55,719 bases of DNA from a virus: positions 1 to 55,719 of IMG/VR virus record IMGVR_UViG_3300006735_004667; one strand, 5' to 3'. This document shows positions 32,731 to 42,156 of this stretch, piece after piece; positions within the stretch are counted from its first letter, which is position 1; each line of letters starts with the position of its first letter. The position numbers and the translations under genes are program-made. The notes below the pieces were generated by a model. The model saw only the letters and a program-made list of their open reading frames with translations. It ran no database searches and was not told where the DNA came from.

Positions 32731-33170
32731 AAGAATTAGGAATGACAATGTTCGGAGTGTTATGTATAGTAGCATTCTTTAGTATAAAAATATATCCAGA
32801 TTTAGAATATTCTGGTGTCGGTGGTGGTCATTCATGCACCGGTGAATGTTATGAAGAATATGTAAGAATCAATGGTACTAGTGTTGAAATAGAACAGAGA
32901 AAACAAGCACTTGCATCAGTTGATGAATTTAGTTCTATCAAAAGTTTATGGTCTGGTTGTGCAGCATGTCATGGCAACGAAGGTCAAGGTATGGGAGTAT
33001 TTCCAAAACTTGCAGGACAGAATGCTGATTACATAATAAACAGACTGAATCAATACAAAAACAGAGAACAAATAGGTCCTATGAGTGCTACAATGTGGGC
33101 ACAAGCAGGTATGTTATCTGACAATGACATAAATACTATTGGTAGATTTATTGAGGAGACTATGAAATGA
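32727..33170 (+). CDS. Membrane-anchored class I cytochrome c
   Basis: 147 residues. An N-terminal hydrophobic helix (MTMFGVLCIVAFFSIKIY) exports and probably anchors it. SGCAACHGNEGQGMGVFPKL near residues 73-92 holds the CxxCH heme site, and AGQNADYIINRLNQYKN plus MSATMW (axial Met) and LSDNDINTIGRFIEE match the c4/c5/c553-type fold. It would carry electrons in the periplasm, matured by host Ccm. The 40-residue linker contains an extra CTGEC pair. A rare phage gene, packed between nrdB and glutaredoxin. Confidence 0.88.
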   Translation: MKELGMTMFGVLCIVAFFSIKIYPDLEYSGVGGGHSCTGECYEEYVRINGTSVEIEQRKQALASVDEFSSIKSLWSGCAACHGNEGQGMGVFPKLAGQNADYIINRLNQYKNREQIGPMSATMWAQAGMLSDNDINTIGRFIEETMK

Positions 33171-33400
33171 TTGAAATATACAGTAAACCAGCATGTCCTT
33201 ATTGTGTTAGAGCAAAGAACTTATGTGAACAAAAAGGATATGAATATACATACAAAATGTTGGACGAAGACTTTACCAGAGAAGAACTCTTTGAGAAGTT
33301 TCCAACAGCAAGAACATTTCCACAGATAACAGCTCATGGAGAGTATATCGGTGGATTTACAGAATTTGAACAATGGACTAACGGAGAAAGAAGGATTTAA
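33167..33400 (+). CDS. grxC: Glutaredoxin
   Basis: 77 residues. CPYC at 9-12 within IYSKPACPYCVRAKNLC is the dithiol active site; TARTFPQIT is the cis-Pro loop and GGFTEFEQW the glutathione-binding C-terminal motif. It should reduce the phage NrdA, and perhaps the peroxiredoxin, with host glutathione. Coupled to the cytochrome gene by a four-base overlap. Confidence 0.93.
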   Translation: MIEIYSKPACPYCVRAKNLCEQKGYEYTYKMLDEDFTREELFEKFPTARTFPQITAHGEYIGGFTEFEQWTNGERRI

Positions 33401-33402
33401 AC

Positions 33403-33594
33403 ATGGAAAACATAGAACATCATGGCGAAAATTGTATTGAGATGTTTTGTGAAGAATGTGGAGCAGACTTTACGATAGAACACGAAATGGGATTACAGTA
33501 TATTCCACACTATTGTACATTTTGTGGTGAAGAAATATATCGTGAAGAGGAGAATATAGATTATGAAGAAAACAATCAAGGAACAGTTCACTAG
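33403..33594 (+). CDS. Zinc-ribbon protein
   Basis: 63 residues. CEECGADF (near 15) and CTFCGEEIY (near 39) form a four-Cys zinc ribbon; the N-terminus has extra His and Cys (HHGENCIEMF). The end is acidic (EEENIDYEENN). Probably a small DNA- or protein-binding factor. It lies two bases after glutaredoxin and overlaps the lipoprotein gene. Confidence 0.7.
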   Translation: MENIEHHGENCIEMFCEECGADFTIEHEMGLQYIPHYCTFCGEEIYREEENIDYEENNQGTVH

Positions 33595-33853
33595 AGTAAA
33601 TCTAGAAACAAACATATACACCCTACTGATACTAGGTTCTCTAGTATTAATGTCATTAACATCTTGTTCAATCGTAGAAATCAACAAACAGAAGATTGAA
33701 CCTGATATGGAAGAACTACAACCATTATACGAAAAATGTAAAAGATTTGAATACAAACATGACCCAGCTAGAAAAGGTCCTATGTTTGATTTATGGATGG
33801 AATGTATCATGAATGAACAAGAAAGAGTAAGACTTTTAAAACATACAGCATGA
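33563..33853 (+). CDS. Small lipoprotein
   Basis: 96 residues with a signal sequence and lipobox (LVLMSLTSCSIVEINKQ, Cys near 35). The mature part is helical and charged, with two further Cys. It overlaps the zinc-ribbon gene by 32 bases. It could be a second small outer-membrane lipoprotein for lysis or superinfection exclusion; the sequence does not decide. Confidence 0.6.
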   Translation: MKKTIKEQFTRVNLETNIYTLLILGSLVLMSLTSCSIVEINKQKIEPDMEELQPLYEKCKRFEYKHDPARKGPMFDLWMECIMNEQERVRLLKHTA

Positions 33854-34116
33854 AGAATCTAAACAAATTCACTTATGTTCCTGGTAGTAAGAACGAAACT
33901 GATAAGATTCTATTGTTCAATAATGTAGCAGTAGCGTTTGAAGATGTAGCGTTGATGTGTCTATTCTTTATGGAGAATGAAGACAATCTATACCCACCTT
34001 CAAGAGGCTTTAAAGGTGCTGAAATGTTTAAAGATTACATTAAAGAAACACTAGAAACAAGAAAAATACCACAAGACAAACAATATGCAATCAAAAAAAG
34101 GAGAACTAAAGTATGA
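33850..34116 (+). CDS. Hypothetical protein
   Basis: 88 residues, with FTYVPGSKNETDKILLFNN and a C-terminal basic end KKRRTKV. It is overlapped at both ends by coupled neighbours. No motif is recognised and no membrane helix is certain (ALMCLFFM is too short). Confidence 0.5.
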   Translation: MKNLNKFTYVPGSKNETDKILLFNNVAVAFEDVALMCLFFMENEDNLYPPSRGFKGAEMFKDYIKETLETRKIPQDKQYAIKKRRTKV

Positions 34117-34214
34117 ATAACTTTCCAGACATAATAGACTACTTCATCTTTGTATTAGTAGCACTCATTCCAATAACATTTATAGCTGCTTTCATAGAGA
34201 GAATATGGTCATGA
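34113..34214 (+). CDS. Micro membrane protein (33 residues)
   Basis: One transmembrane helix (YFIFVLVALIPITFIAAF) with a short tail ERIWS. Start and stop overlap neighbouring genes as ATGA, strongly suggesting translation. AGGAG lies eleven bases upstream. Function unknown. Confidence 0.5.
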   Translation: MNNFPDIIDYFIFVLVALIPITFIAAFIERIWS

Positions 34215-34456
34215 TAACATACAAACAACTAAAGAAACTAGTAAAAGAGAACGCAAATGACATGATGTTAGGTTCTAAAATAAGAGAGATATATCGTAAT
34301 AATGTCAAAGAGATAACAGAATTAGAAAGATTCAATCTCATCAATGACGCCGCGCAACAATCAATAACCGAAGGCACGAAGGTTACGAGCTCAGAAATAC
34401 AGTTAGAATTAGACTTAGAAGAAGCTTTAGAAGACCTCAAAGAAGACAAAGAATAG
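34211..34456 (+). CDS. Hypothetical acidic helical protein
   Basis: 81 residues from the ATG at 34211 (an ATG two codons earlier is possible). MITYKQLKKLVKENANDMML leads to a helical, acidic C-terminus (LELDLEEALEDLKEDKE). A short GC-richer stretch occurs at about 34345-34395, unlike its surroundings. No function recognised. Confidence 0.55.
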   Translation: MITYKQLKKLVKENANDMMLGSKIREIYRNNVKEITELERFNLINDAAQQSITEGTKVTSSEIQLELDLEEALEDLKEDKE

Positions 34457-34459
34457 AGT

Positions 34460-34467
34460 TATAAATA
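34460..34467 (+). promoter_or_regulatory. T4-type late promoter (TATAAATA)
   Basis: Exact TATAAATA ten bases before the ATG at 34477, so the transcript would begin only a few bases before the start codon. No clear ribosome site lies between. Confidence 0.6.
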
Positions 34468-34476
34468 CTTCTTATC

Positions 34477-34743
34477 ATGGCAATAAGAAGATATACAGAG
34501 AGTCAAAACATAAGATTCGAAGTTCACATAGTAGAACTATTAGACGAAGCTTTACAATCCCAATGGTGTAAAGACAGAAACTTCAACAGAAGTGACTTAA
34601 TACGACATCTAGTTCGTATAGGATTACACAATTTTCAAAGAAAACAACCAATGAATAGAGAGTTTATCTCAGAGAGAGATGAATCTTTTGGGTCTTTAGA
34701 TGTTAATTCAAGTAATGTGAAAGACTTATTCGGTGATTCTTAA
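34477..34743 (+). CDS. Ribbon-helix-helix-like regulator
   Basis: 88 residues. The beta strand IRFEVHIVEL followed by two helices (DEALQSQWCKDR and RSDLIRHLVRIGL) fits a CopG/MetJ-type ribbon-helix-helix DNA-binding fold, and the S-D-L-I-R start of the second helix is typical. The C-terminal 35 residues are polar. It has its own late promoter. Regulator of phage or host transcription is an inference from the fold pattern. Confidence 0.55.
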   Translation: MAIRRYTESQNIRFEVHIVELLDEALQSQWCKDRNFNRSDLIRHLVRIGLHNFQRKQPMNREFISERDESFGSLDVNSSNVKDLFGDS

Positions 34744-34850
34744 TGTCTTTTATATGTGTAAACACTAACAGAACACATGAAAAGTATCAAATAACCGAGT
34801 GTGAGAGAGAATACGAAAGTCTTCATGAAAAAGAAAACAAAAAAGTCTAA
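34743..34850 (+). CDS. Micro-protein (35 residues)
   Basis: MSFICVNTNRTHEKYQ and an acidic/basic helical tail. It starts within the stop of the preceding gene and overlaps the next start, so coupling supports it; no other evidence is available. Confidence 0.35.
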   Translation: MSFICVNTNRTHEKYQITECEREYESLHEKENKKV

Positions 34851-35217
34851 AAGAGTTTCAAAGATTCATAGAGTTTACTGTACTTACTTCAAAGACGGCC
34901 GCTACTATATAGGTTATTCGTGTAAACCAGAGAAACAGTTCGAGAAGTACTTCGGAAGTAGTAGTATTATAAAAGAAGCGAATAGTAACGAACTAGAGAA
35001 GGAGTTACTCCTTGTTACCCCTCATCGGAATAAAGCTAAAATACAAGAGTTTCTCCTACAATGGCAATGTAGACACGACAGTATGTGTTTAAATGATATG
35101 ATACATATAAGACTAAGACTATCTCATCTCAAAGACTTCACACCCATCTCATGGACACCAAGACATTCAACAGATACATTCGTAGATACACCAGACGGGT
35201 ATAAGACAGTTACATAG
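34825..35217 (+). CDS. GIY-YIG-like protein
   Basis: 130 residues from the ATG at 34825; an in-frame GTG at 34801 is less likely. HRVYCTYFKDGRYYIGYS corresponds to the GIY...YIG core, followed by KYFGSS and a basic helix, as in Seg-type nucleases. The catalytic Glu is not obvious, so it may be inactive. A bidirectional terminator follows two bases after the stop. Confidence 0.5.
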   Translation: MKKKTKKSKRVSKIHRVYCTYFKDGRYYIGYSCKPEKQFEKYFGSSSIIKEANSNELEKELLLVTPHRNKAKIQEFLLQWQCRHDSMCLNDMIHIRLRLSHLKDFTPISWTPRHSTDTFVDTPDGYKTVT

Positions 35218-35219
35218 AA

Positions 35220-35246
35220 AAAGGACTCCATCGGAGGCCTTTGTTT
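35220..35246. terminator. Bidirectional intrinsic terminator
   Basis: AAAGG-A-CTCC (35220-35229) pairs with GGAG-G-CCTTT (35233-35242) around a three-base loop. It is followed by TTTGTTT on the plus strand and by a T5 run on the minus strand, so it can end both the rightward genes and the leftward gene at 35298-35495. Confidence 0.75.
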
Positions 35247-35262
35247 ATAAGGGTTTCAGAGT

Positions 35263-35291
35263 ACTCTCCCGGAACGAATACTAGGGAGAGT
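35263..35291 (-). terminator. Second hairpin in the convergent gap
   Basis: Perfect eight-base stem (ACTCTCCC at 35263-35270, GGGAGAGT at 35284-35291), 13-base loop. It follows the stop of the minus-strand gene. There is no T-run next to it, so it may protect the transcript end rather than terminate. Confidence 0.45.
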
Positions 35292-35297
35292 TAAACT

Positions 35298-35495
35298 CTA
35301 TATTGTTGTCATGTTATCATAAAAGAAATCTTTATCCCAATCATCACCAAGAGTCTTATCAAGAAGCTTCTCTGGTGTTGTTATGTTATTAACAACATCA
35401 TTGAAGTTATCCTTCGTTATAAGAACACTATCTGGATACTCCGTTGCGATGTGAGTAAGATTCAGTCTATGTGTGTAATCTTTCTTATTTTTCAT
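35298..35495 (-). CDS. Hypothetical early protein
   Basis: 65 residues from the ATG at 35495; a second ATG at 35504 abuts the -10 box and would lie before the transcription start. MKNKKDYTHRLNLTHIATEY, then acidic (KTLGDDWDKDFFYDN). It is the only minus-strand gene in the left 48 kb, read from its own class A promoter without leader or Shine-Dalgarno sequence. Unknown function. Confidence 0.6.
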   Translation of the reverse strand: MKNKKDYTHRLNLTHIATEYPDSVLITKDNFNDVVNNITTPEKLLDKTLGDDWDKDFFYDNMTTI

Positions 35496-35504
35496 TATGT
35501 ACAT

Positions 35505-35534
35505 AGTATATCAAAAGTGTACATGCGTTGTCAA
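35505..35534 (-). promoter_or_regulatory. Class A promoter (minus strand)
   Basis: On the minus strand: TTGACA, 18-base spacer containing GTACACTTTT, then TATACTA. This is the same pattern as four plus-strand sites. The ATG at 35495 lies nine bases past the -10 box. It is divergent from the promoter at 35694. Confidence 0.75.
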
Positions 35535-35693
35535 ATAGGGGGGGTAGGTGGAGACTCAGAATACCACATATCGATATACGGACTTACTGCAACCTGGTTG
35601 TTCAAAGAAAACTAAACCAATTTCAAAACCATGATATCAAAATTTTTTTTTCTATATTTTTTTTCGTCTCAAACCAAAATTTTTTTCCGGTAC

Positions 35694-35723
35694 TTGAAAC
35701 CACTGGTACCCTTTTTGTATACT
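35694..35723 (+). promoter_or_regulatory. Class A promoter
   Basis: TTGAAA at 35694-35699, 18-base spacer with GTACCCTTTT, TATACT at 35718-35723. The ATG at 35730 lies six bases on, so the mRNA is probably leaderless. Three T-tracts lie just upstream at 35643-35650, 35657-35664 and 35680-35686. Confidence 0.72.
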
Positions 35724-35729
35724 ATAAAC

Positions 35730-35852
35730 ATGATGAAAACTTACTTACGAAAATTAGACATCTGGTTCTTTAGTAGTCCAGCTGTTGGTATGATGTTCCC
35801 TTGGGTTGTTGTATTCTCAATAATTCATGGTGTCTCTTACATAGTATCTTAA
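35730..35852 (+). CDS. Small hydrophobic early protein
   Basis: 40 residues, MMKTYLRKLDIWFF then a membrane helix (VGMMFPWVVVFSIIHGVSYI). The longer open frame upstream is discarded because it would begin before the promoter. No Shine-Dalgarno sequence. A small inner-membrane protein made early could block superinfection or alter host envelope function, but nothing in the sequence proves this. Confidence 0.5.
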   Translation: MMKTYLRKLDIWFFSSPAVGMMFPWVVVFSIIHGVSYIVS

Positions 35853-35855
35853 TAC

Positions 35856-35885
35856 TTGACACCGCGGGTACACTTTTTGTATACT
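35856..35885 (+). promoter_or_regulatory. Class A promoter
   Basis: TTGACA at 35856-35861, 18-base spacer with GTACACTTTT, TATACT at 35880-35885. It begins three bases after the preceding stop and drives the 35916-37204 operon through a leader carrying GAGGT. Confidence 0.78.
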
Positions 35886-35915
35886 ATAGACATGATAAAG
35901 AAAGAGGTAAATAAT

Positions 35916-36254
35916 ATGGAAAATGGAATCTGGTCAGAGTTCGCCGAAGAAGGACTCAATTCAATAAAGATAGAAAAAGAATCTTTGAAAGATGTCTTTC
36001 AAGAACCTTTCGAAGGTATTAGATATAAACATTCAGGTAAAATGTATGAAGGATATGTTGATGAAGTGTTTGATGATTACATTGTAGCAAGAGTTGAACT
36101 TTGTTTAGATGATTTTAGTCGAAAGCTTGGAGAATTTGACACGGTGATACTTTATAAACAAGTATTTAAATCAATCGAATTAGAATGGTGGTATGAAGGA
36201 CAAGGTTCTTGTACTAGAGGTTCTGGTTCATGGGAAAAATTGGAGGTAGCTTAA
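35916..36254 (+). CDS. Hypothetical early protein
   Basis: 112 residues from the ATG at 35916, chosen because AGAGGT lies seven bases before it; earlier in-frame starts overlap the promoter. The middle looks like a small beta barrel (GIRYKHSGKMYEGYVDEVF, YIVARVEL) and the end is rich in Trp, Gly and Ser. First gene of a class A operon. No family recognised. Confidence 0.6.
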   Translation: MENGIWSEFAEEGLNSIKIEKESLKDVFQEPFEGIRYKHSGKMYEGYVDEVFDDYIVARVELCLDDFSRKLGEFDTVILYKQVFKSIELEWWYEGQGSCTRGSGSWEKLEVA

Positions 36255-36255
36255 T

Positions 36256-36444
36256 ATGTTAATTGAAATAACACAAGCAGATTATAAAAAGTTTCTGAGA
36301 AAGGTAAGTATTCTTAAGAGTAATGGTATTGTTCTTGATTATACAGTCGTTTCTCCGAACAAAAGGGTGGTCAAATTGACTATGAATAAGGTATATGATT
36401 GGGTCAAACTAGACTCAATTTGTGAAAAGGGGAGTGTTTCATGA
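36256..36444 (+). CDS. Hypothetical early protein
   Basis: 62 residues with a compact alpha/beta pattern (LIEITQADYKKFLRKV, GIVLDYTVVSPNKRVVKL). It starts one base after its neighbour and ends overlapping the next ATG, so it is part of the class A operon. Unknown function. Confidence 0.55.
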   Translation: MLIEITQADYKKFLRKVSILKSNGIVLDYTVVSPNKRVVKLTMNKVYDWVKLDSICEKGSVS

Positions 36445-36893
36445 GTGATAAGTATGTAAAATTGGAGAACCTTGAGGGTTTTGATGATGAATTTCTCAAT
36501 GCTTTGAGTGAATTAGAGTTAAGAATCTTTGAAGATTATGACAGATTCATGCCTTCTAAAGGTAATAAAGGATTTCCAGAAACAGTTCCTGGCGAACATC
36601 CGATGTTTACTGAGTTCAAAAATGACTTTGGTTATTCTGTTAAAGGTAGAAAGTATCTGAAACTAGTGATAGGAGCTTTTGGTGAAAGAAATCAAACTTC
36701 TGTTTGGGGTTTCATTGCTAAATCTGATTTTAAAGTAAACAACAAAAAGAAGTCAGGTGGTCCATTCATAGATTTTAAAGAGGGTGATATACTCAAATCA
36801 GCAGGTTGGAATACACCAGCTCTAAACAGTCCAAGAGGTAATATCTTTAGTGATGATTATTCAGTTGGTTGGACTGGACCAAAATATTTATGA
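36441..36893 (+). CDS. Hypothetical early protein
   Basis: 150 residues. GRKYLKLVIGAFGERNQTSV and WGFIAKSDFKVNNKKKSGG suggest a beta domain with a nucleic-acid-like basic loop. GGGGAG precedes the ATG. It is coupled at both ends. In small phage early operons such genes often encode host-takeover factors, but there is no direct evidence. Confidence 0.6.
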   Translation: MSDKYVKLENLEGFDDEFLNALSELELRIFEDYDRFMPSKGNKGFPETVPGEHPMFTEFKNDFGYSVKGRKYLKLVIGAFGERNQTSVWGFIAKSDFKVNNKKKSGGPFIDFKEGDILKSAGWNTPALNSPRGNIFSDDYSVGWTGPKYL

Positions 36894-37204
36894 ATAGAAT
36901 AATTTATGATGAAACTAATCCTCACCCACATTGGGAGAAAGGTTGGTATTCATTCGCTTACAAATATGAACCTATGACAGACTTTACAGATTTTGATTGT
37001 ATACAAGAAATAACTGTATGGGATAAAACAGATTGTAATATACCTTCACATACTTATGTTCTTAATCGAGCTGGGTATTGTAATGGGTATTTTAAAAACA
37101 ACATTATCACTTTGGATAATTGGTTTCAGTTTGGTAGGTCAAATCAAGGATTTAGTAAATCACATAGAAAATGGAAAAAAGTATCAATAGGAAAATTAGC
37201 TTGA
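36890..37204 (+). CDS. Hypothetical early protein
   Basis: 104 residues from the ATG at 36890, overlapping the previous stop. It is rich in aromatic residues (HPHWEKGWYSFAYKYEP, NWFQFGRSNQGFSKSH) with a D-C-x-Q Cys pair. The last codons overlap the -35 box of the next class A promoter. No family recognised. Confidence 0.55.
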   Translation: MNRIIYDETNPHPHWEKGWYSFAYKYEPMTDFTDFDCIQEITVWDKTDCNIPSHTYVLNRAGYCNGYFKNNIITLDNWFQFGRSNQGFSKSHRKWKKVSIGKLA

Positions 37205-37230
37205 CACCGCTGGTACCCTTTTGTTATACT
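37201..37230 (+). promoter_or_regulatory. Class A promoter
   Basis: TTGACA at 37201-37206 overlapping the previous stop, 18-base spacer with GTACCCTTTT, TATACT at 37225-37230. GAGGT precedes the ATG at 37262. Confidence 0.78.
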
Positions 37231-37261
37231 ATGTACATAATAAAAAATAGAGGTATAAAAT

Positions 37262-37666
37262 ATGAAAAACGAAAGTATATTATTTAAACCATGTGTTCCG
37301 GGAACGGTTGGTCATGGTGGTTCTCTCCAAGGAGAGATTCGTGCTTCGTATGCTGAGTTAGTTGAAATGTTTGGCGAACCAGCTTTCGAAGGTATTGGTG
37401 ATAAAATCACAACAGAGTTTGTGATTGACTATGAGTATCATGACGGTATAACCGATGATACTGAATATGGTGGTTTCAGTTTATATGATTGGAGATTCGG
37501 AAGAAATCTTAATGATGATACACAAGAAATCACTTGGAATGTCGGTGGTAGAAAATTCTTGGACGGAGTTGCTGCTAGTCATGCAATGACTATTTTTAAT
37601 AATACAGACATTAGATATGGACAGGATTCGGCTGTTCTATGTCATGCACAATGGCATAAAGTTTAA
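37262..37666 (+). CDS. Hypothetical early protein
   Basis: 134 residues. VPGTVGHGGSLQGEIRASYA and the acidic YHDGITDDTEYGGFSLYDW give a single alpha/beta domain rich in Gly, Asp and aromatic residues. It has its own class A promoter and is followed directly by a structured RNA on the same strand. Function unknown. Confidence 0.6.
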   Translation: MKNESILFKPCVPGTVGHGGSLQGEIRASYAELVEMFGEPAFEGIGDKITTEFVIDYEYHDGITDDTEYGGFSLYDWRFGRNLNDDTQEITWNVGGRKFLDGVAASHAMTIFNNTDIRYGQDSAVLCHAQWHKV

Positions 37667-37670
37667 ACAA

Positions 37671-37778
37671 TGAGAGAGGGATTCCCGAGTAGGATTTCGT
37701 AAACTGGGTTTCGTAATGATATATACTGTAGCAAGTGAAATTTCCCTAAGTGTCCTGACTTCCTCTCTCACCCTTTTT
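37671..37778 (+). ncRNA. Putative structured RNA with three nested stems
   Basis: P1 is a perfect nine-base stem (TGAGAGAGG at 37671-37679, CCTCTCTCA at 37762-37770). P2 is AGTAGGA (37688-37694) with TCCTGACT (37753-37760), seven pairs and one bulged G. P3 is ACTGGGTTTC (37703-37712) with GAAA, CCC and AGT segments between 37737 and 37751. T5 follows at 37774-37778. Twice-repeated TTTCGTAA lies inside. No ORF is present. It could be a stand-alone RNA processed from the upstream class A transcript, or the 3' end of that mRNA. Confidence 0.6.
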
Positions 37779-37799
37779 AATATTTAGTATGGAGAAAAA

Positions 37800-37922
37800 A
37801 TGGAATATTTAATCACACATTTAAAAGAAATGTTATTAGTTATCGGAGCTGCAAGTTTTACAGGACTGTTTTGTTGGGCAATATGGTTTTGTATTTATGG
37901 GGAAGATATAAATAACAAATAG
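37800..37922 (+). CDS. Micro membrane protein (40 residues)
   Basis: One membrane helix (LLVIGAASFTGLFCWAIWFC) and an acidic end. GGAG lies nine bases before the ATG, and the next gene follows two bases after the stop. Unknown function; possibly part of a lysis group with the hydrolase at 38212. Confidence 0.5.
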   Translation: MEYLITHLKEMLLVIGAASFTGLFCWAIWFCIYGEDINNK

Positions 37923-37924
37923 TT

Positions 37925-38215
37925 ATGACAAAGTTTGAACAGAAAGAGATAGAAAACTCTAAAAGAATATTTAAGTCAGCAACACCGAAGTATACAATAG
38001 ATTGGTATTTGAAATGGATATCATCTTGTTTTGTATTAGCTTCAATGTCTATAAGAGGTATAGAAGGACTTCAAGATTATGATTTAATATTATCAACCTG
38101 TGGAGTATTCGGTTGGTTGATTGTTTCTTTTATTTGGCAAGACAGAGCATTGATAATAGTCAATGGTGTTGGTCTTATGTTTCTAATTAAAAACTTAATA
38201 ACAAATCTAATATGA
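37925..38215 (+). CDS. Membrane protein, possible holin-like
   Basis: 96 residues with two or three hydrophobic segments (WISSCFVLASMSIRGI, LILSTCGVFGWLIVSFIW, ALIIVNGVGLMFLIKNLI). The W-x-D-R-A-L-I-I-V-N end is a conserved pattern of a small marine phage membrane family of unknown role. It overlaps the hydrolase gene by four bases, a position that would suit a holin or lysis helper. Confidence 0.55.
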   Translation: MTKFEQKEIENSKRIFKSATPKYTIDWYLKWISSCFVLASMSIRGIEGLQDYDLILSTCGVFGWLIVSFIWQDRALIIVNGVGLMFLIKNLITNLI

Positions 38216-38814
38216 AAAAATATCAAATTTATTTAATACTAGCAACCATTGGTGTTGTTATATATCACGAACATACATTAACTAAAAAAGTAGATGAAAT
38301 ACATGATGTAGTTCTACCTTATATTTTAGATACAGTAAATGACACAAATGATACAGTAAATGAAATCAGTAGAACTATTCACAATACACCATATGATTTA
38401 TCAAATGATTATCATTGTTTAGCTTCAAACATTTATTGGGAGTCGCGTAATCAATCACTTGGTGGTAAAGTAGCTGTAGGTCAGGTTGTTCTTAACAGAG
38501 TTGACAGCGAAGTATTTCCTGATACAATATGTAATGTAGTTAAACAAACAAAATATTATCCTAGTGGTGGTATTGATTTACACGATTGTCAATTCAGTTG
38601 GTATTGTGATGGGAAGTCAGATGTACCTCTAGAGCATGAACAAGTTGTATATGAAGAATCATTCATGATAGCTGTTAATCTTCTGGAGAATCGTCCTATG
38701 GACCTCACAGGTGGTGCTGTTCACTATCATTCAGATAAAGTATATCCTTATTGGGCAGACACTTTAGAAAGAACAACAAGAATTGATAATCATATATTTT
38801 ATAAAAGGAAATAG
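38212..38814 (+). CDS. SleB-type cell wall hydrolase
   Basis: 200 residues. The N-terminal hydrophobic segment (YLILATIGVVIYHEHTL) is a signal anchor. Residues 65-195 match Hydrolase_2/SleB: LASNIYWESRNQSLGGKVAV with the catalytic Glu, VVLNRVDSEVFPDTICNVV, and CQFSWYCDG. These enzymes cleave peptidoglycan glycan strands. With the T4-type lysozyme at 1292 the phage has two wall enzymes; the exported one may be the endolysin and the other a virion or holin-dependent enzyme. Confidence 0.85.
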   Translation: MKKYQIYLILATIGVVIYHEHTLTKKVDEIHDVVLPYILDTVNDTNDTVNEISRTIHNTPYDLSNDYHCLASNIYWESRNQSLGGKVAVGQVVLNRVDSEVFPDTICNVVKQTKYYPSGGIDLHDCQFSWYCDGKSDVPLEHEQVVYEESFMIAVNLLENRPMDLTGGAVHYHSDKVYPYWADTLERTTRIDNHIFYKRK

Positions 38815-38817
38815 ATT

Positions 38818-39147
38818 ATGGGTATGATAAATTTAGGTTCATCAATGAGATATGGACCAAATGGTAAAAGAAGAAAAACAAAAGCTTGGACTACTAAGAA
38901 AAGAAAAGTAGCACCACCTCATTTACAAGGTGAGTTAAAACAGAGTCAAACAGAACTAAACAGAATGCAAGCAATAAAAGAACATAGAAATAAATATCCT
39001 TCCTATGAATCAAACAAATATATTCCTACTAGTTATGATGATTCTTATAAAAAAGAAGTATCAGAAAACTATACAGTAGCAATAGGATACAATAAAGGTG
39101 GGTATCAAGTGATACCAAAAAGTGAAATTAAAGACATCGGAAAATAA
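38818..39147 (+). CDS. Conserved hypothetical protein
   Basis: 109 residues, basic N-terminus (GPNGKRRKTKAWTTKKRKV) and a conserved end (SENYTVAIGYNKGGYQVIP, KSEIKDIGK) familiar from other marine phages. A small unknown domain with a disordered basic lead is likely. It follows the hydrolase by three bases. Confidence 0.6.
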   Translation: MGMINLGSSMRYGPNGKRRKTKAWTTKKRKVAPPHLQGELKQSQTELNRMQAIKEHRNKYPSYESNKYIPTSYDDSYKKEVSENYTVAIGYNKGGYQVIPKSEIKDIGK

Positions 39148-39166
39148 TAATATTATATATAATTAA

Positions 39167-40303
39167 ATGGCAATAAGAAAAACAAAAAGAAAAACCAAAG
39201 CGTCAAGAATTACTTTAGATGAAATGCACATGGGTTTAGAACCTGGTGTTGATTTTTTTGAAGATAAATCAGTCGGTGCTTTTTACAATTGGTATAATTA
39301 TATGTATGACCGAAAGAAAGTTAATCAGGTCATAATATCTTACGCAAAGAAACATGGTTATAAGAATGCACCTAAATTTTCTAAAATGTTTTTACCACAA
39401 AGCTTTGCAGCTGTCATTCGTGGATTAGAAAATGGTATTAAGTTTCCAGACCATAATGATTATCCTGGTGAAGGTGCAGCAGGTTATCAAAAATATATTC
39501 ATTCAGAATTAAGAAAGTATAATAAGAAAGCAACAGAATTAAAACAAAAAGATTTAAATACTGATATGGTCATTAAGAAGAAAAGACTTTCAGTTCAAGA
39601 AAACATTAATAATAAAGGACAAGAATTATTAGGTGATGTTGATTATGCAATTGATACATGGGATATTATTCCATTTGATATGTATAAGTATTTAAGTGAG
39701 AAAGGTGCTTCCTCTGCTGTAGCTAATTCAATCGTTAATGAATATGATTCTTTAATAGAAGAAATTAAAGAAGCAAGAACAGGTGATTGTAAACAACTTA
39801 AAGAAGCTTACAACCATATGACTAAAAGTGAAAAAGATGATTTCTATAATTTCTTACTTAAAATAAAAACAGATACAGAAAGATATGTTCTAAATAATAA
39901 ACCTGTAAGAAAACCAAGAAAAGCAAAAGCAATCAATGCTACAAAAGTTGTATCAAAATTAAATTTTCTAGAACATGATACAGACAATAAAGTTAAATCA
40001 ATAGACCCAAGTAGAATAGTAGGGTGTAAAGAATTATGGGTATTCAATAGTAAGACAAATGAAATGATTAGGTATGTAGCAGAAGACAGAGGTGGTCTTT
40101 CAGTTAAAGGAACAACAATTCAAAACTTCGATTCTAAAACATCAATGAGTAAGAAACTTGGTGTCAAGACAAAACACTTTATTGACCGTATTTTAGAGGG
40201 TGGTTCAATCGTACTAAATAAGTGTATGAATGAAATAAATTCAAAGTCTAGTGAAGTATCTGGACGAATAAATAATAATATGATATTACTAAAGGTGGAT
40301 TAA
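39167..40303 (+). CDS. Conserved hypothetical protein
   Basis: 378 residues. A basic start (MAIRKTKRKTKASRIT), then MGLEPGVDFFEDKSVGAFYN and a helical N-terminal half; the C-terminal half includes VVSKLNFLEHDTDNKVKSID and ELWVFNSKTNEMIRYVAED, a beta domain near 290-330. No catalytic motif is seen. It is followed by three bases and then the next gene, so both are co-translated. Confidence 0.65.
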   Translation: MAIRKTKRKTKASRITLDEMHMGLEPGVDFFEDKSVGAFYNWYNYMYDRKKVNQVIISYAKKHGYKNAPKFSKMFLPQSFAAVIRGLENGIKFPDHNDYPGEGAAGYQKYIHSELRKYNKKATELKQKDLNTDMVIKKKRLSVQENINNKGQELLGDVDYAIDTWDIIPFDMYKYLSEKGASSAVANSIVNEYDSLIEEIKEARTGDCKQLKEAYNHMTKSEKDDFYNFLLKIKTDTERYVLNNKPVRKPRKAKAINATKVVSKLNFLEHDTDNKVKSIDPSRIVGCKELWVFNSKTNEMIRYVAEDRGGLSVKGTTIQNFDSKTSMSKKLGVKTKHFIDRILEGGSIVLNKCMNEINSKSSEVSGRINNNMILLKVD

Positions 40304-40306
40304 ATT

Positions 40307-40783
40307 ATGGCTATAGATTATAGTAGATTACCGAGTGATGCTTCAACAGTTGAAATCTTAACTGCAGTATCTAAACTCAAAACAAAAAAAGAAAAAATAC
40401 AAATGTTGCAAGCGTTTGAATCAAGAGCAGACTTTATGTATGTATTAAGAGGAGCGTATGCAAAGAACATAGTGTGGTTAATACCAGATGGAGAACTACC
40501 ACCTGGTGTATCATGGAGTAGTGCAGCTTCTATTGATACAGCAGAAGATAGATTAATTAGAGCGTACAGAAATTTGTCGTATCTAGTTAAAGGTGGTCCT
40601 GATGTTAAACAATCTAAAAGAGAAGATATTTATTTAAATATGATTAGGTCGTTTCATGAATCAGAAGCAAAACTTCTTATGTCAATGGTGAGTAAAAAAT
40701 TACCATACAAAGGAATAACTAAAGCATTAATTGCAGAAGCTTTTCCTACAGTTTGGCCAAAAGAAAACAAGTCAGAATCATAA
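40307..40783 (+). CDS. Conserved T4-like protein (DUF6433-like)
   Basis: 158 residues. VEILTAVSKLKTKKEKIQML, RADFMYVLRGAYAKNIVWLI and PDGELPPG match a family conserved across T4-like cyanophages, which I recall as DUF6433. Position near replication and late-transcription genes gives no clear role. Length is normal for the family. Confidence 0.6.
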   Translation: MAIDYSRLPSDASTVEILTAVSKLKTKKEKIQMLQAFESRADFMYVLRGAYAKNIVWLIPDGELPPGVSWSSAASIDTAEDRLIRAYRNLSYLVKGGPDVKQSKREDIYLNMIRSFHESEAKLLMSMVSKKLPYKGITKALIAEAFPTVWPKENKSES

Positions 40784-40786
40784 ATA
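40779..40786 (+). promoter_or_regulatory. Late promoter-like box (CATAAATA)
   Basis: One mismatch from TATAAATA, overlapping the preceding stop and five bases before the ATG at 40792, so any transcript from it would be leaderless. Confidence 0.35.
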
Positions 40787-40791
40787 CTTAA

Positions 40792-41088
40792 ATGAGTAAT
40801 AAACTAGGATTAACATTAGAAGAACGAACTGTTTTTTATACTACACCTGAAGGTAAAAGAGTAGGTGAGATAAGACAGTTTGACCCTATAGTAGGACTTT
40901 TAAATATTCATGACCCTATGAAAAATACTCAAATAGAATTTTTATGGGATTCAAGTTCTTCCAAATGGAAGGGTCTTGGAGTCCAATCTGGATATGAAGC
41001 TCTAGTATCACTAGAAACTCCTATCACTAAACAAACGGATAGTGATGTTCCAGATAAAGCAGTAAGTGTGTCAAGATTTCCTTCATAG
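40792..41088 (+). CDS. Hypothetical protein
   Basis: 98 residues, beta-rich at first (LTLEERTVFYTTPEGKRVGE, IVGLLNIHDPMKNTQIEFLW) with a polar end. No recognised family. It ends just before a sigma70-type promoter and a strong hairpin. Confidence 0.5.
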   Translation: MSNKLGLTLEERTVFYTTPEGKRVGEIRQFDPIVGLLNIHDPMKNTQIEFLWDSSSSKWKGLGVQSGYEALVSLETPITKQTDSDVPDKAVSVSRFPS

Positions 41089-41108
41089 GATAGACACAAA
41101 AAATTAAC

Positions 41109-41137
41109 TTGACAGAAATCAAGTTATGTAGTAAAAT
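41109..41137 (+). promoter_or_regulatory. Sigma70-type promoter
   Basis: TTGACA at 41109-41114, 17-base spacer, TAAAAT at 41132-41137. It belongs to neither repeated class. Transcription would begin at about 41144, at the foot of the hairpin that follows. Confidence 0.65.
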
Positions 41138-41143
41138 TAATAT

Positions 41144-41205
41144 ATGAATTGAGATTGTGTAAGTCAATCCGCGTTTTAGAGGAGCGTCAATCTCAATTTG
41201 TTTTT
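41144..41205 (+). ncRNA. Hairpin leader or small terminated RNA
   Basis: A perfect 11-base stem (AATTGAGATTG at 41147-41157, CAATCTCAATT at 41188-41198) encloses a 30-base loop with a TCC/GGA inner pairing, then TTTGTTTTT. The predicted transcription start falls at its left foot. It would make a short terminated RNA, or act as attenuator for the gene at 41236. Confidence 0.55.
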
Positions 41206-41235
41206 AATAAACCATTTATTATGACAGGAGAAAAA

Positions 41236-41463
41236 ATGGAAACTAAAGTAATAACAGTCCAAGATTTAGCCGGTGTGGTTTCAATCATTGATGTATGCTC
41301 TGCAAGAGGTGCATTTAAAGGTGAAGAACTAGCTGGTGTCGGAAGACTGAGAGAATCTTTTCTTGCTGAGGTGAAAGAACAACAACCTGATGCTGTACAA
41401 GCACCAGTGGGTGTAGAAACACCAGTTGTCGAAACAACCGAAGAAGATAACTCTGATTCATAA
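41236..41463 (+). CDS. Conserved small protein
   Basis: 75 residues from the ATG at 41236, with AGGAG seven bases before; the in-frame extension back to 41149 crosses the hairpin and is rejected. ITVQDLAGVVSIIDVCSARG and AFKGEELAGVGRLRESFL fit a short helical family common in marine T4-like phages, with a polar, Pro/Val-rich tail. Expression depends on passing the hairpin. Role unknown. Confidence 0.65.
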   Translation: METKVITVQDLAGVVSIIDVCSARGAFKGEELAGVGRLRESFLAEVKEQQPDAVQAPVGVETPVVETTEEDNSDS

Positions 41464-41474
41464 GCTTATAGATT

Positions 41475-41501
41475 AGAGGGATTAACTTCCCTCTTTCTTT
41501 T
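41475..41501 (+). terminator. Intrinsic terminator
   Basis: AGAGGGA (41475-41481) and TCCCTCT (41488-41494) form a perfect seven-base stem with a six-base loop, followed by TTCTTTT. It ends the 41236 transcript. Confidence 0.8.
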
Positions 41502-41518
41502 ATTTAACAGACACGAAT

Positions 41519-41728
41519 ATGCCAACAAAATTAAAACCAAGTGTAAAAACACTTAATAGAAAAATAGGTAAGACTACTACTGAACATTTCTATATGAAAA
41601 CTATGTCTAAAGAATCATTATTTGAATACATTAATGACGATAGAAATAAACCTAAGATTAAACAGAAATGTAGAAATGAATTAGCTAGAAGAGGTATCAA
41701 AATAGTAATGGTGCCGAAGGAAGTATAA
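41519..41728 (+). CDS. Hypothetical basic protein
   Basis: 69 residues, basic and helical (LKPSVKTLNRKIGKTTTEHF, KIKQKCRNELARRGIKIV). The end resembles a small RNA- or DNA-binding helix pair. It overlaps the next ATG by one base. Similar short proteins occur in related phages, without known function. Confidence 0.55.
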   Translation: MPTKLKPSVKTLNRKIGKTTTEHFYMKTMSKESLFEYINDDRNKPKIKQKCRNELARRGIKIVMVPKEV

Positions 41729-42156
41729 TGGTTTACATACCTCTGAAAAATGGTTCTGGACAAGTAGTTAAAGATATTAAACTTAAAAGTCCAGACAATA
41801 AAACTTATACTGTTGTTCGTAATAAAAGAAAAGGTATTAACAGATATGAGATTGAATTAAAAGGTAGTGATGGGTCCACAAAAAAAGTAATGAATCATGA
41901 TATCATGAAAAAGAAATCAGACCCTAAACACGAACCTTGGGAAGTGGTAGGTGGTTTTCATAGTCCTGCTGAACTAGCGAAGATAAACAAATCAGATAAA
42001 GTTGACCCGGATGCTAACAAACCAAGGTCAAAAAGAAAGTCGTTTTGGAAACAAGACAACAAACCAGGAACACATAGTCATAGTCAAAAACAAAGATTAA
42101 TGAAAAAAGAAGAATTTAAAAAATTTAGAGAGTATTTTAAAAATGACAGAGATTAA
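41728..42156 (+). CDS. Hypothetical basic protein
   Basis: 142 residues. The first half is an SH3-like beta barrel (SGQVVKDIKLKSPDNKTYTV, NRYEIELKGSDGSTKKVM), the second half a disordered, Lys/His/Ser-rich stretch (KPGTHSHSQKQRLMKKEEF). A nucleic-acid-binding role is conceivable. Coupled to both neighbours. Confidence 0.55.
   Translation: MVYIPLKNGSGQVVKDIKLKSPDNKTYTVVRNKRKGINRYEIELKGSDGSTKKVMNHDIMKKKSDPKHEPWEVVGGFHSPAELAKINKSDKVDPDANKPRSKRKSFWKQDNKPGTHSHSQKQRLMKKEEFKKFREYFKNDRD

Follow-up and report, generated by a model that had tools for sequence, protein, structure and literature searches.

A predicted structured RNA with a near-invariant core is shared by dozens of otherwise different phages, often directly ahead of a tRNA gene

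A structured element behind an early-type phage gene

The window analyzed here comprises the 55,719 nt of a virus record (IMG/VR IMGVR_UViG_3300006735_004667, positions 1 to 55,719), whose best DNA match among deposited phages is Pelagibacter phage HTVC008M, with merely 4% of a 24-kb query covered. Our interest was in an intergenic stretch that a preliminary description of this DNA had proposed to encode a structured RNA. The stretch lies directly behind a gene for a 134-aa protein and is followed by a 40-codon ORF at 37800; a DUF6552 gene lies 155 nt behind the element, and a cell-wall hydrolase (endolysin) gene is also located downstream. The features of the locus, as refined by the comparisons below, are as follows.

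37201..37230, + strand: predicted sigma-70-like early promoter of the upstream gene (motif scan)
37262..37666, + strand: upstream neighbor, a 134-aa gene matching nothing in PHROG or Pfam
37671..37770, + strand: whole structured RNA element, P1 to P1' (match to covariance model R1, covariation)
37671..37684, + strand: P1 5' strand, pairing with 37757-37770 at 13 of 14 positions
37685..37690, + strand: conserved 6-nt bulge CCGAGU, family form HCGARU (comparison of copies)
37691..37694, + strand: P2 5' strand AGGA, pairing with UCCU at 37753-37756
37695..37705, + strand: near-invariant internal-loop segment UUUCGUAAACU (alignment)
37706..37708, + strand: P3 5' strand GGG, pairing with 37744-37746
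37709..37743, + strand: P4 domain, pelagiphage type, in which UUUC 37709-37712 can pair with GAAA 37737-37740
37744..37752, + strand: P3 3' strand CCC and conserved loop segment UAAGUG (alignment)
37753..37756, + strand: P2 3' strand UCCU (covariation)
37757..37770, + strand: P1 3' strand (covariation)
37774..37778, + strand: T-run TTTTT behind P1 (sequence)

P1 encloses 72 nt in the window, and its outer nine pairs are unbroken, just as first described. The T-run after the stems and the position behind an early-type gene were likewise read correctly. The inner stems were partly wrong and needed revision: a P2 of seven pairs with one bulge had been proposed, while relatives support 4 bp, together with a P3 of 3 bp and a lineage-specific P4.

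Comparative evidence for a conserved fold

Taken by itself, the window element folds with -25.2 kcal/mol (z -0.52), and 52 of 200 shuffled sequences did at least as well. Folding energy was dropped as proof of structure (z -0.52 on the + strand, -0.46 on the - strand), and the case rests wholly on comparison. When seven relatives were folded, six gave z-scores of -1.20 to -3.81 and one, with a query that was cut short, +0.44.

In an alignment of 37 copies, pairing holds in 94.6% of cells, and two-sided changes are seen in 12 of 17 pairs. These include all 10 P1 pairs counted and two of the four pairs of P2, in which 148/148 cells are paired. P3 is different: its GGG/CCC is invariant in 37/37 copies, which leaves the pairing unproved by covariation. 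Cells with two-sided changes numbered 176, compared to 54 in shuffled alignments and 26-50 when the structure was slid, and the covariation score was 0.704 versus 0.187 after shuffling and 0.11-0.18 after sliding by 1-3 columns, the slid control being biased in favor of structure since the structure was set by hand from the same 37 sequences. None of 500 shuffles reached 0.704, and RNAalifold, with the alignment as its sole input, returned the same three helices. Covariation above both shuffled and slid controls is what we take to define a structured noncoding RNA, and the strong covariation of P1 and P2 bears out the original reading of the stretch as one.

Mismatch types indicate the strand. 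The 842 helix cells of all 61 family members (see below) include 83 G-U and 14 A-C combinations; this excess of G-U points to an RNA of the + strand, and on these counts an opposite-strand RNA or a DNA hairpin was rejected. Among six pelagiphage-type copies, identity is 94% in the core, 70% in the upstream gene, and 53% in the downstream DNA. Judged from these alignments, constraint weighs more heavily on the element than on the sequence around it, the opposite of the pattern (flanking genes conserved, stems not) that the preliminary description had named as evidence against it.

The family shares a common anatomy. A freely varying P1 of 5-18 positions is followed by the bulge HCGARU, a 4-bp P2 that is usually GGUN with NACU or NACC, the near-invariant internal loop UUUCGUAAAYU/URAGUG, the GGG/CCC of P3, and a variable, lineage-specific P4 domain of 5-74 nt. 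Large conserved single-stranded segments hence separate the helices, and the internal-loop segment corresponding to 37695..37705 stayed conserved even with five of its positions left free in the search pattern. Six natural variants (L030, L033, L034, L035, L036, and L140) have lost all or some of the bulge while keeping the internal loop and GGG/CCC. To judge from their sequences, these variants hint that function resides in the internal loop together with GGG/CCC, unless those copies are decaying.

Distribution among viral contigs

Using the 134-aa protein as a query, we recovered 14 viral-contig loci. The element sits directly behind the 134-aa relative in seven (L001, L002, L003, L004, L006, L008, and L014), follows ∼650 nt further on in L010, and is absent from six (L005, L007, L009, L011, L012, and L013). 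One of the latter, L012, carries at the element's usual place behind the 134-aa relative (match end 3369) a GC-rich hairpin run ending GACCCCC...GGGGGTCTTTT, which is unrelated to the element and has no Rfam match.

Patterns derived from the core yielded 14, 22, and 68 stretches in viral contigs, and later searches added members. In the 68-stretch set, 67 satisfied a descriptor of P1 and P2 pairing, the 68th (L074) being cut by a contig end. A further 23 loci (L111-L133) comprised eight with the element (L112, L114, L123, L124, L126, L127, L129, and L130) and 15 chance matches. After removal of duplicates, the family stands at 61 distinct copies from 90 occurrences in viral contigs; the feature noticed in the window is real and reaches further than its first description said, as the window copy is one member among 61. 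Leaving five loop positions free in the pattern gave 104 stretches, and among the 55 new loci examined (L142-L183 and L184-L196), only L174/L179 and L191 proved to be members, with all four P2 pairs, P1, and the core; these are outside the 61. At the remaining loci of that set P2 fails, and they look protein-coding by eye.

A covariance model of 87 positions (R1), built from 37 sequences including the window, recovers all known members supplied at E <1e-4, 37 of them being its own building set. The window copy, itself one of those building sequences, scores 75.2 bits (E 1.5e-17). In a search of 20 records, the 12 with a match contained exactly one copy each, and eight had none, including HTVC008M, Melnitz, and T4. 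Contigs with the element extend up to 333-340 kb, which tells us that very large phages carry it too.

Comparison with known RNA families

Rfam 15 gave no match in the window at gathering score and chance-level matches alone at E up to 10 within 37500-37900; neither did it match the element in eight relatives (E up to 5) or in 12 more at gathering score. When five variants were compared by blastn with 50,697 deposited phage records, they returned nothing, or short chance matches: inspection of the sequences of H11 and H13 showed the structure to be absent, and H12, H14-H17, and H62-H66 were taken as chance from their E-values of 2-9 and short coverage. Plasmids, queried with one variant, yielded nothing. 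A pattern scan of a collection of cellular genomes, described as covering 84,980 species, found 18 stretches, none convincing; 16 fail the descriptor, none reaches E 0.1 with R1 (best L097, 0.23), and the two that pass, L093 and L094, do so weakly with three of four P2 pairs and four P1 pairs. All these collection searches require a near-exact core, such that remote relatives would escape them. Within the literature searched, we found no earlier report of the family.

The closest parallels in setting are RNAs C and D of phage T4 (rnaC and rnaD; species 1 and 2 RNA), which are close to the element in size (139 and 119 nt) and lie beside phage tRNA genes; of the element's 61 copies, 25 have a tRNA within 400 nt downstream, and the window copy has none. 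To our knowledge, they have no known function. However, rnaC and rnaD sit behind tRNAs while the element is mostly in front of one, and homology, considered because of the tRNA setting, was dismissed as R1 has no match in the whole T4 record. GOLLD and ROOL are described as phage or prophage RNAs with no assigned function that frequently occur close to tRNA islands, many GOLLD RNAs exceeding 800 nt (PMC12286853). Both are large and have Rfam entries, whereas the element is ∼100 nt and has no Rfam match, and we do not assign it to either. Conserved structured RNAs are also described for marine T4-like phages, specifically of the manA, wcaG, and glutamine-riboswitch types (PMC2864571, PMC9004378). 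The element is likewise a structured RNA of marine phages, but differs from these in having no Rfam match and in not being bound to one class of downstream gene. Given a setting that resembles T4 RNAs C and D, GOLLD, and ROOL, and membership in none of them by our tests, the element is, on comparative grounds, filed as a new family within a known kind of RNA, the phage-encoded structured noncoding RNA.

Neighboring tRNAs, promoters, and T-rich flanks

Dozens of otherwise different phages keep the predicted shape and the core letters, often directly ahead of a tRNA gene. ARAGORN places a tRNA ≤400 nt downstream of 25/61 copies, in 22 cases tRNA-Glu; restricting the count to the 56 copies whose sequence extends 400 nt or more downstream leaves 22 with a tRNA and 19 with tRNA-Glu. 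The distance from the element to the next tRNA ranges from 3 to 205 nt, and in 16/61 copies the tRNA starts 3-20 nt behind P1. As tRNA-Glu makes up just 18 of 76 distinct tRNA genes in element loci, its preference goes beyond mere abundance. No tRNA was detected in the window or in the pelagiphage-type loci scanned. At L041 (1286-1371, - strand), the element lies within a cluster of 34 tRNA genes spanning 14.5 kb and is followed after 13 nt by a tRNA-Lys.

A predicted sigma-70-like promoter (score of at least 10) with its -10 box ending 6-12 nt before P1 precedes 8/53 copies, compared to 1.8% of 1060 random places, which leaves 45/53 copies without a strong promoter at P1. One of the eight is the pelagiphage-type copy L031, whose promoter is of the type found at five places in the window, and the same type lies ahead of the variant without the bulge and usual P2 strand in L030 and L033-L036. 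This long shared early-promoter motif, GGTAYMCTTTT ... TATACTA, has its window copies at 35705, 35867, 37212, and 42572 (+ strand) and at 35523 (- strand), the one at 37212 being the promoter of the 134-aa gene. A T-rich flank behind P1 occurs in 16/35 copies without a tRNA (3.8 expected), in 5/16 near-tRNA copies (2.2 expected), and in 4/9 copies with a farther tRNA (1.5 expected); many copies have no T-run.

Nor is there a fixed protein-coding neighbor. Relatives of the DUF6552 gene were found at 42 loci, just one of which has the element, on a contig already counted; this search was incomplete, as L031 has a similar ORF behind the element that was missed. Promoters and neighboring genes vary among copies, and the element is tied to no single gene. 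Altogether, sequence comparison establishes the element as a conserved, covarying + strand structure with a single copy per record and a loose gene context.

A probable discrete RNA, weighed against other readings

An RNA structure under strong constraint and with no tie to a single gene is best explained as a discrete RNA that acts in trans. We therefore consider it probable that the element represents a phage noncoding RNA of roughly 60-125 nt which is freed as its own RNA and acts via its invariant loops on a conserved partner. Different phages would use different routes of release. In some, transcription may start at a promoter just ahead of P1; in others, the transcript may end in the T-rich flank behind P1. 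Since RNase P cuts the 5' end of tRNAs, a third route could operate in the 16 of 61 copies with a closely following tRNA, cleavage at which would release the element. P1 and P4 would then serve as scaffold, and the invariant single-stranded segments would form the surface contacted by the partner; the likeliest candidate is a protein or ribonucleoprotein belonging to the RNA or translation machinery. Weighing against this reading, 45 of 53 copies have no strong promoter at P1, many have no T-run, and the window copy by itself folds no better than shuffled sequence. Phage genes here are also mostly co-oriented, so that some gene or tRNA usually follows the element, which leaves room for a role in cis.

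The main rival, if an unlikely one, is a cis-acting leader (riboswitch, antiterminator, or 5' stabilizer) controlling the gene or tRNA behind it, in which the core would recognize a ligand, a protein, or RNA polymerase, and read-through would be switched by P1 together with the T-rich flank. The copies located at a predicted transcript start are what such a leader should look like, as are those in L031, L030, and L033-L036, which sit between promoter and ORF, and those in L063, L124, and L137, where a T-run is followed by a GGAG resembling a ribosome-binding site. However, the would-be targets differ (tRNA-Glu, other tRNAs, the DUF6552/endolysin operon, and other ORFs) rather than forming one gene class, the spacing to the next tRNA is highly variable, and the window copy lies behind a gene rather than opening the transcript expected from the 37201 promoter.

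An elaborate terminator or 3'-end processing element, which would end or protect the upstream mRNA or split it from the tRNA transcript, strikes us as improbable. With an intrinsic terminator the element shares a stem and T-run in the window and some relatives, and at several loci it directly follows a gene. Terminators, though, need no invariant unpaired core, and the interior here is very large and highly conserved; several copies sit at a promoter with no intervening gene, and many are without the T-run. Moreover, a terminator scan for short hairpins (loops of 3-8 nt) lists five sites in 33000-42000 and none at the element, in agreement with the earlier view that this is more than a plain terminator. 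Very improbable, in our estimate, is a small pseudoknotted ribozyme or aptamer, in which bulge CGAR and loop UUCG would form an H-type pseudoknot with P2. Of the 60 copies whose bulge is complete, 53 could form all four pairs, and the most frequent substitution, A/G facing U, preserves a pair. Yet the pairing is broken in seven copies with no compensated change seen, the UUGCG (L174, L179) and UUCCG (L191) loops from the free-position search also come without a compensating change, and segments of such length show four-pair complementarity by chance in 22-31% of random cases. There is also no Rfam ribozyme or riboswitch match.

Returning to a trans-acting RNA, a more specific version seems doubtful to us: a new class of compact phage RNA, present once per phage in many large uncultured phages (the longest record being 340 kb) and co-processed with tRNA-Glu in some of them, that might take over or shield part of the host RNA or translation machinery. 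It could, for example, lure away a host factor or a defense nuclease that attacks tRNAs.

Phage RNAs beside tRNA genes, such as T4 RNAs C and D, GOLLD, and ROOL, are still without a known function. The family described here is much smaller than GOLLD and ROOL, has an almost invariant core, includes natural variants lacking parts, and is mainly tied to tRNA-Glu (UUC), which together make it tractable for finding what such RNAs bind. It also provides a marker for large uncultured phages with unexplored RNA biology.

Additional features of the window and its relatives

Cultured relatives are described as using other RNAs, namely, a two-piece tmRNA and a glutamine riboswitch (PMC9004378). In HTVC008M, ARAGORN and Rfam agree on a permuted two-piece tmRNA gene (L134:47104-47462) that is missing from the deposited annotation. 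In Melnitz, a tRNA match of 50.8 bits (L135:20684-20754) lies inside an annotated hypothetical CDS, ∼400 nt behind a relative of the 134-aa gene. The window itself contains, at 35263-35291 between two convergent ORFs, a perfect 8-bp inverted repeat, ACTCTCCC/GGGAGAGT.
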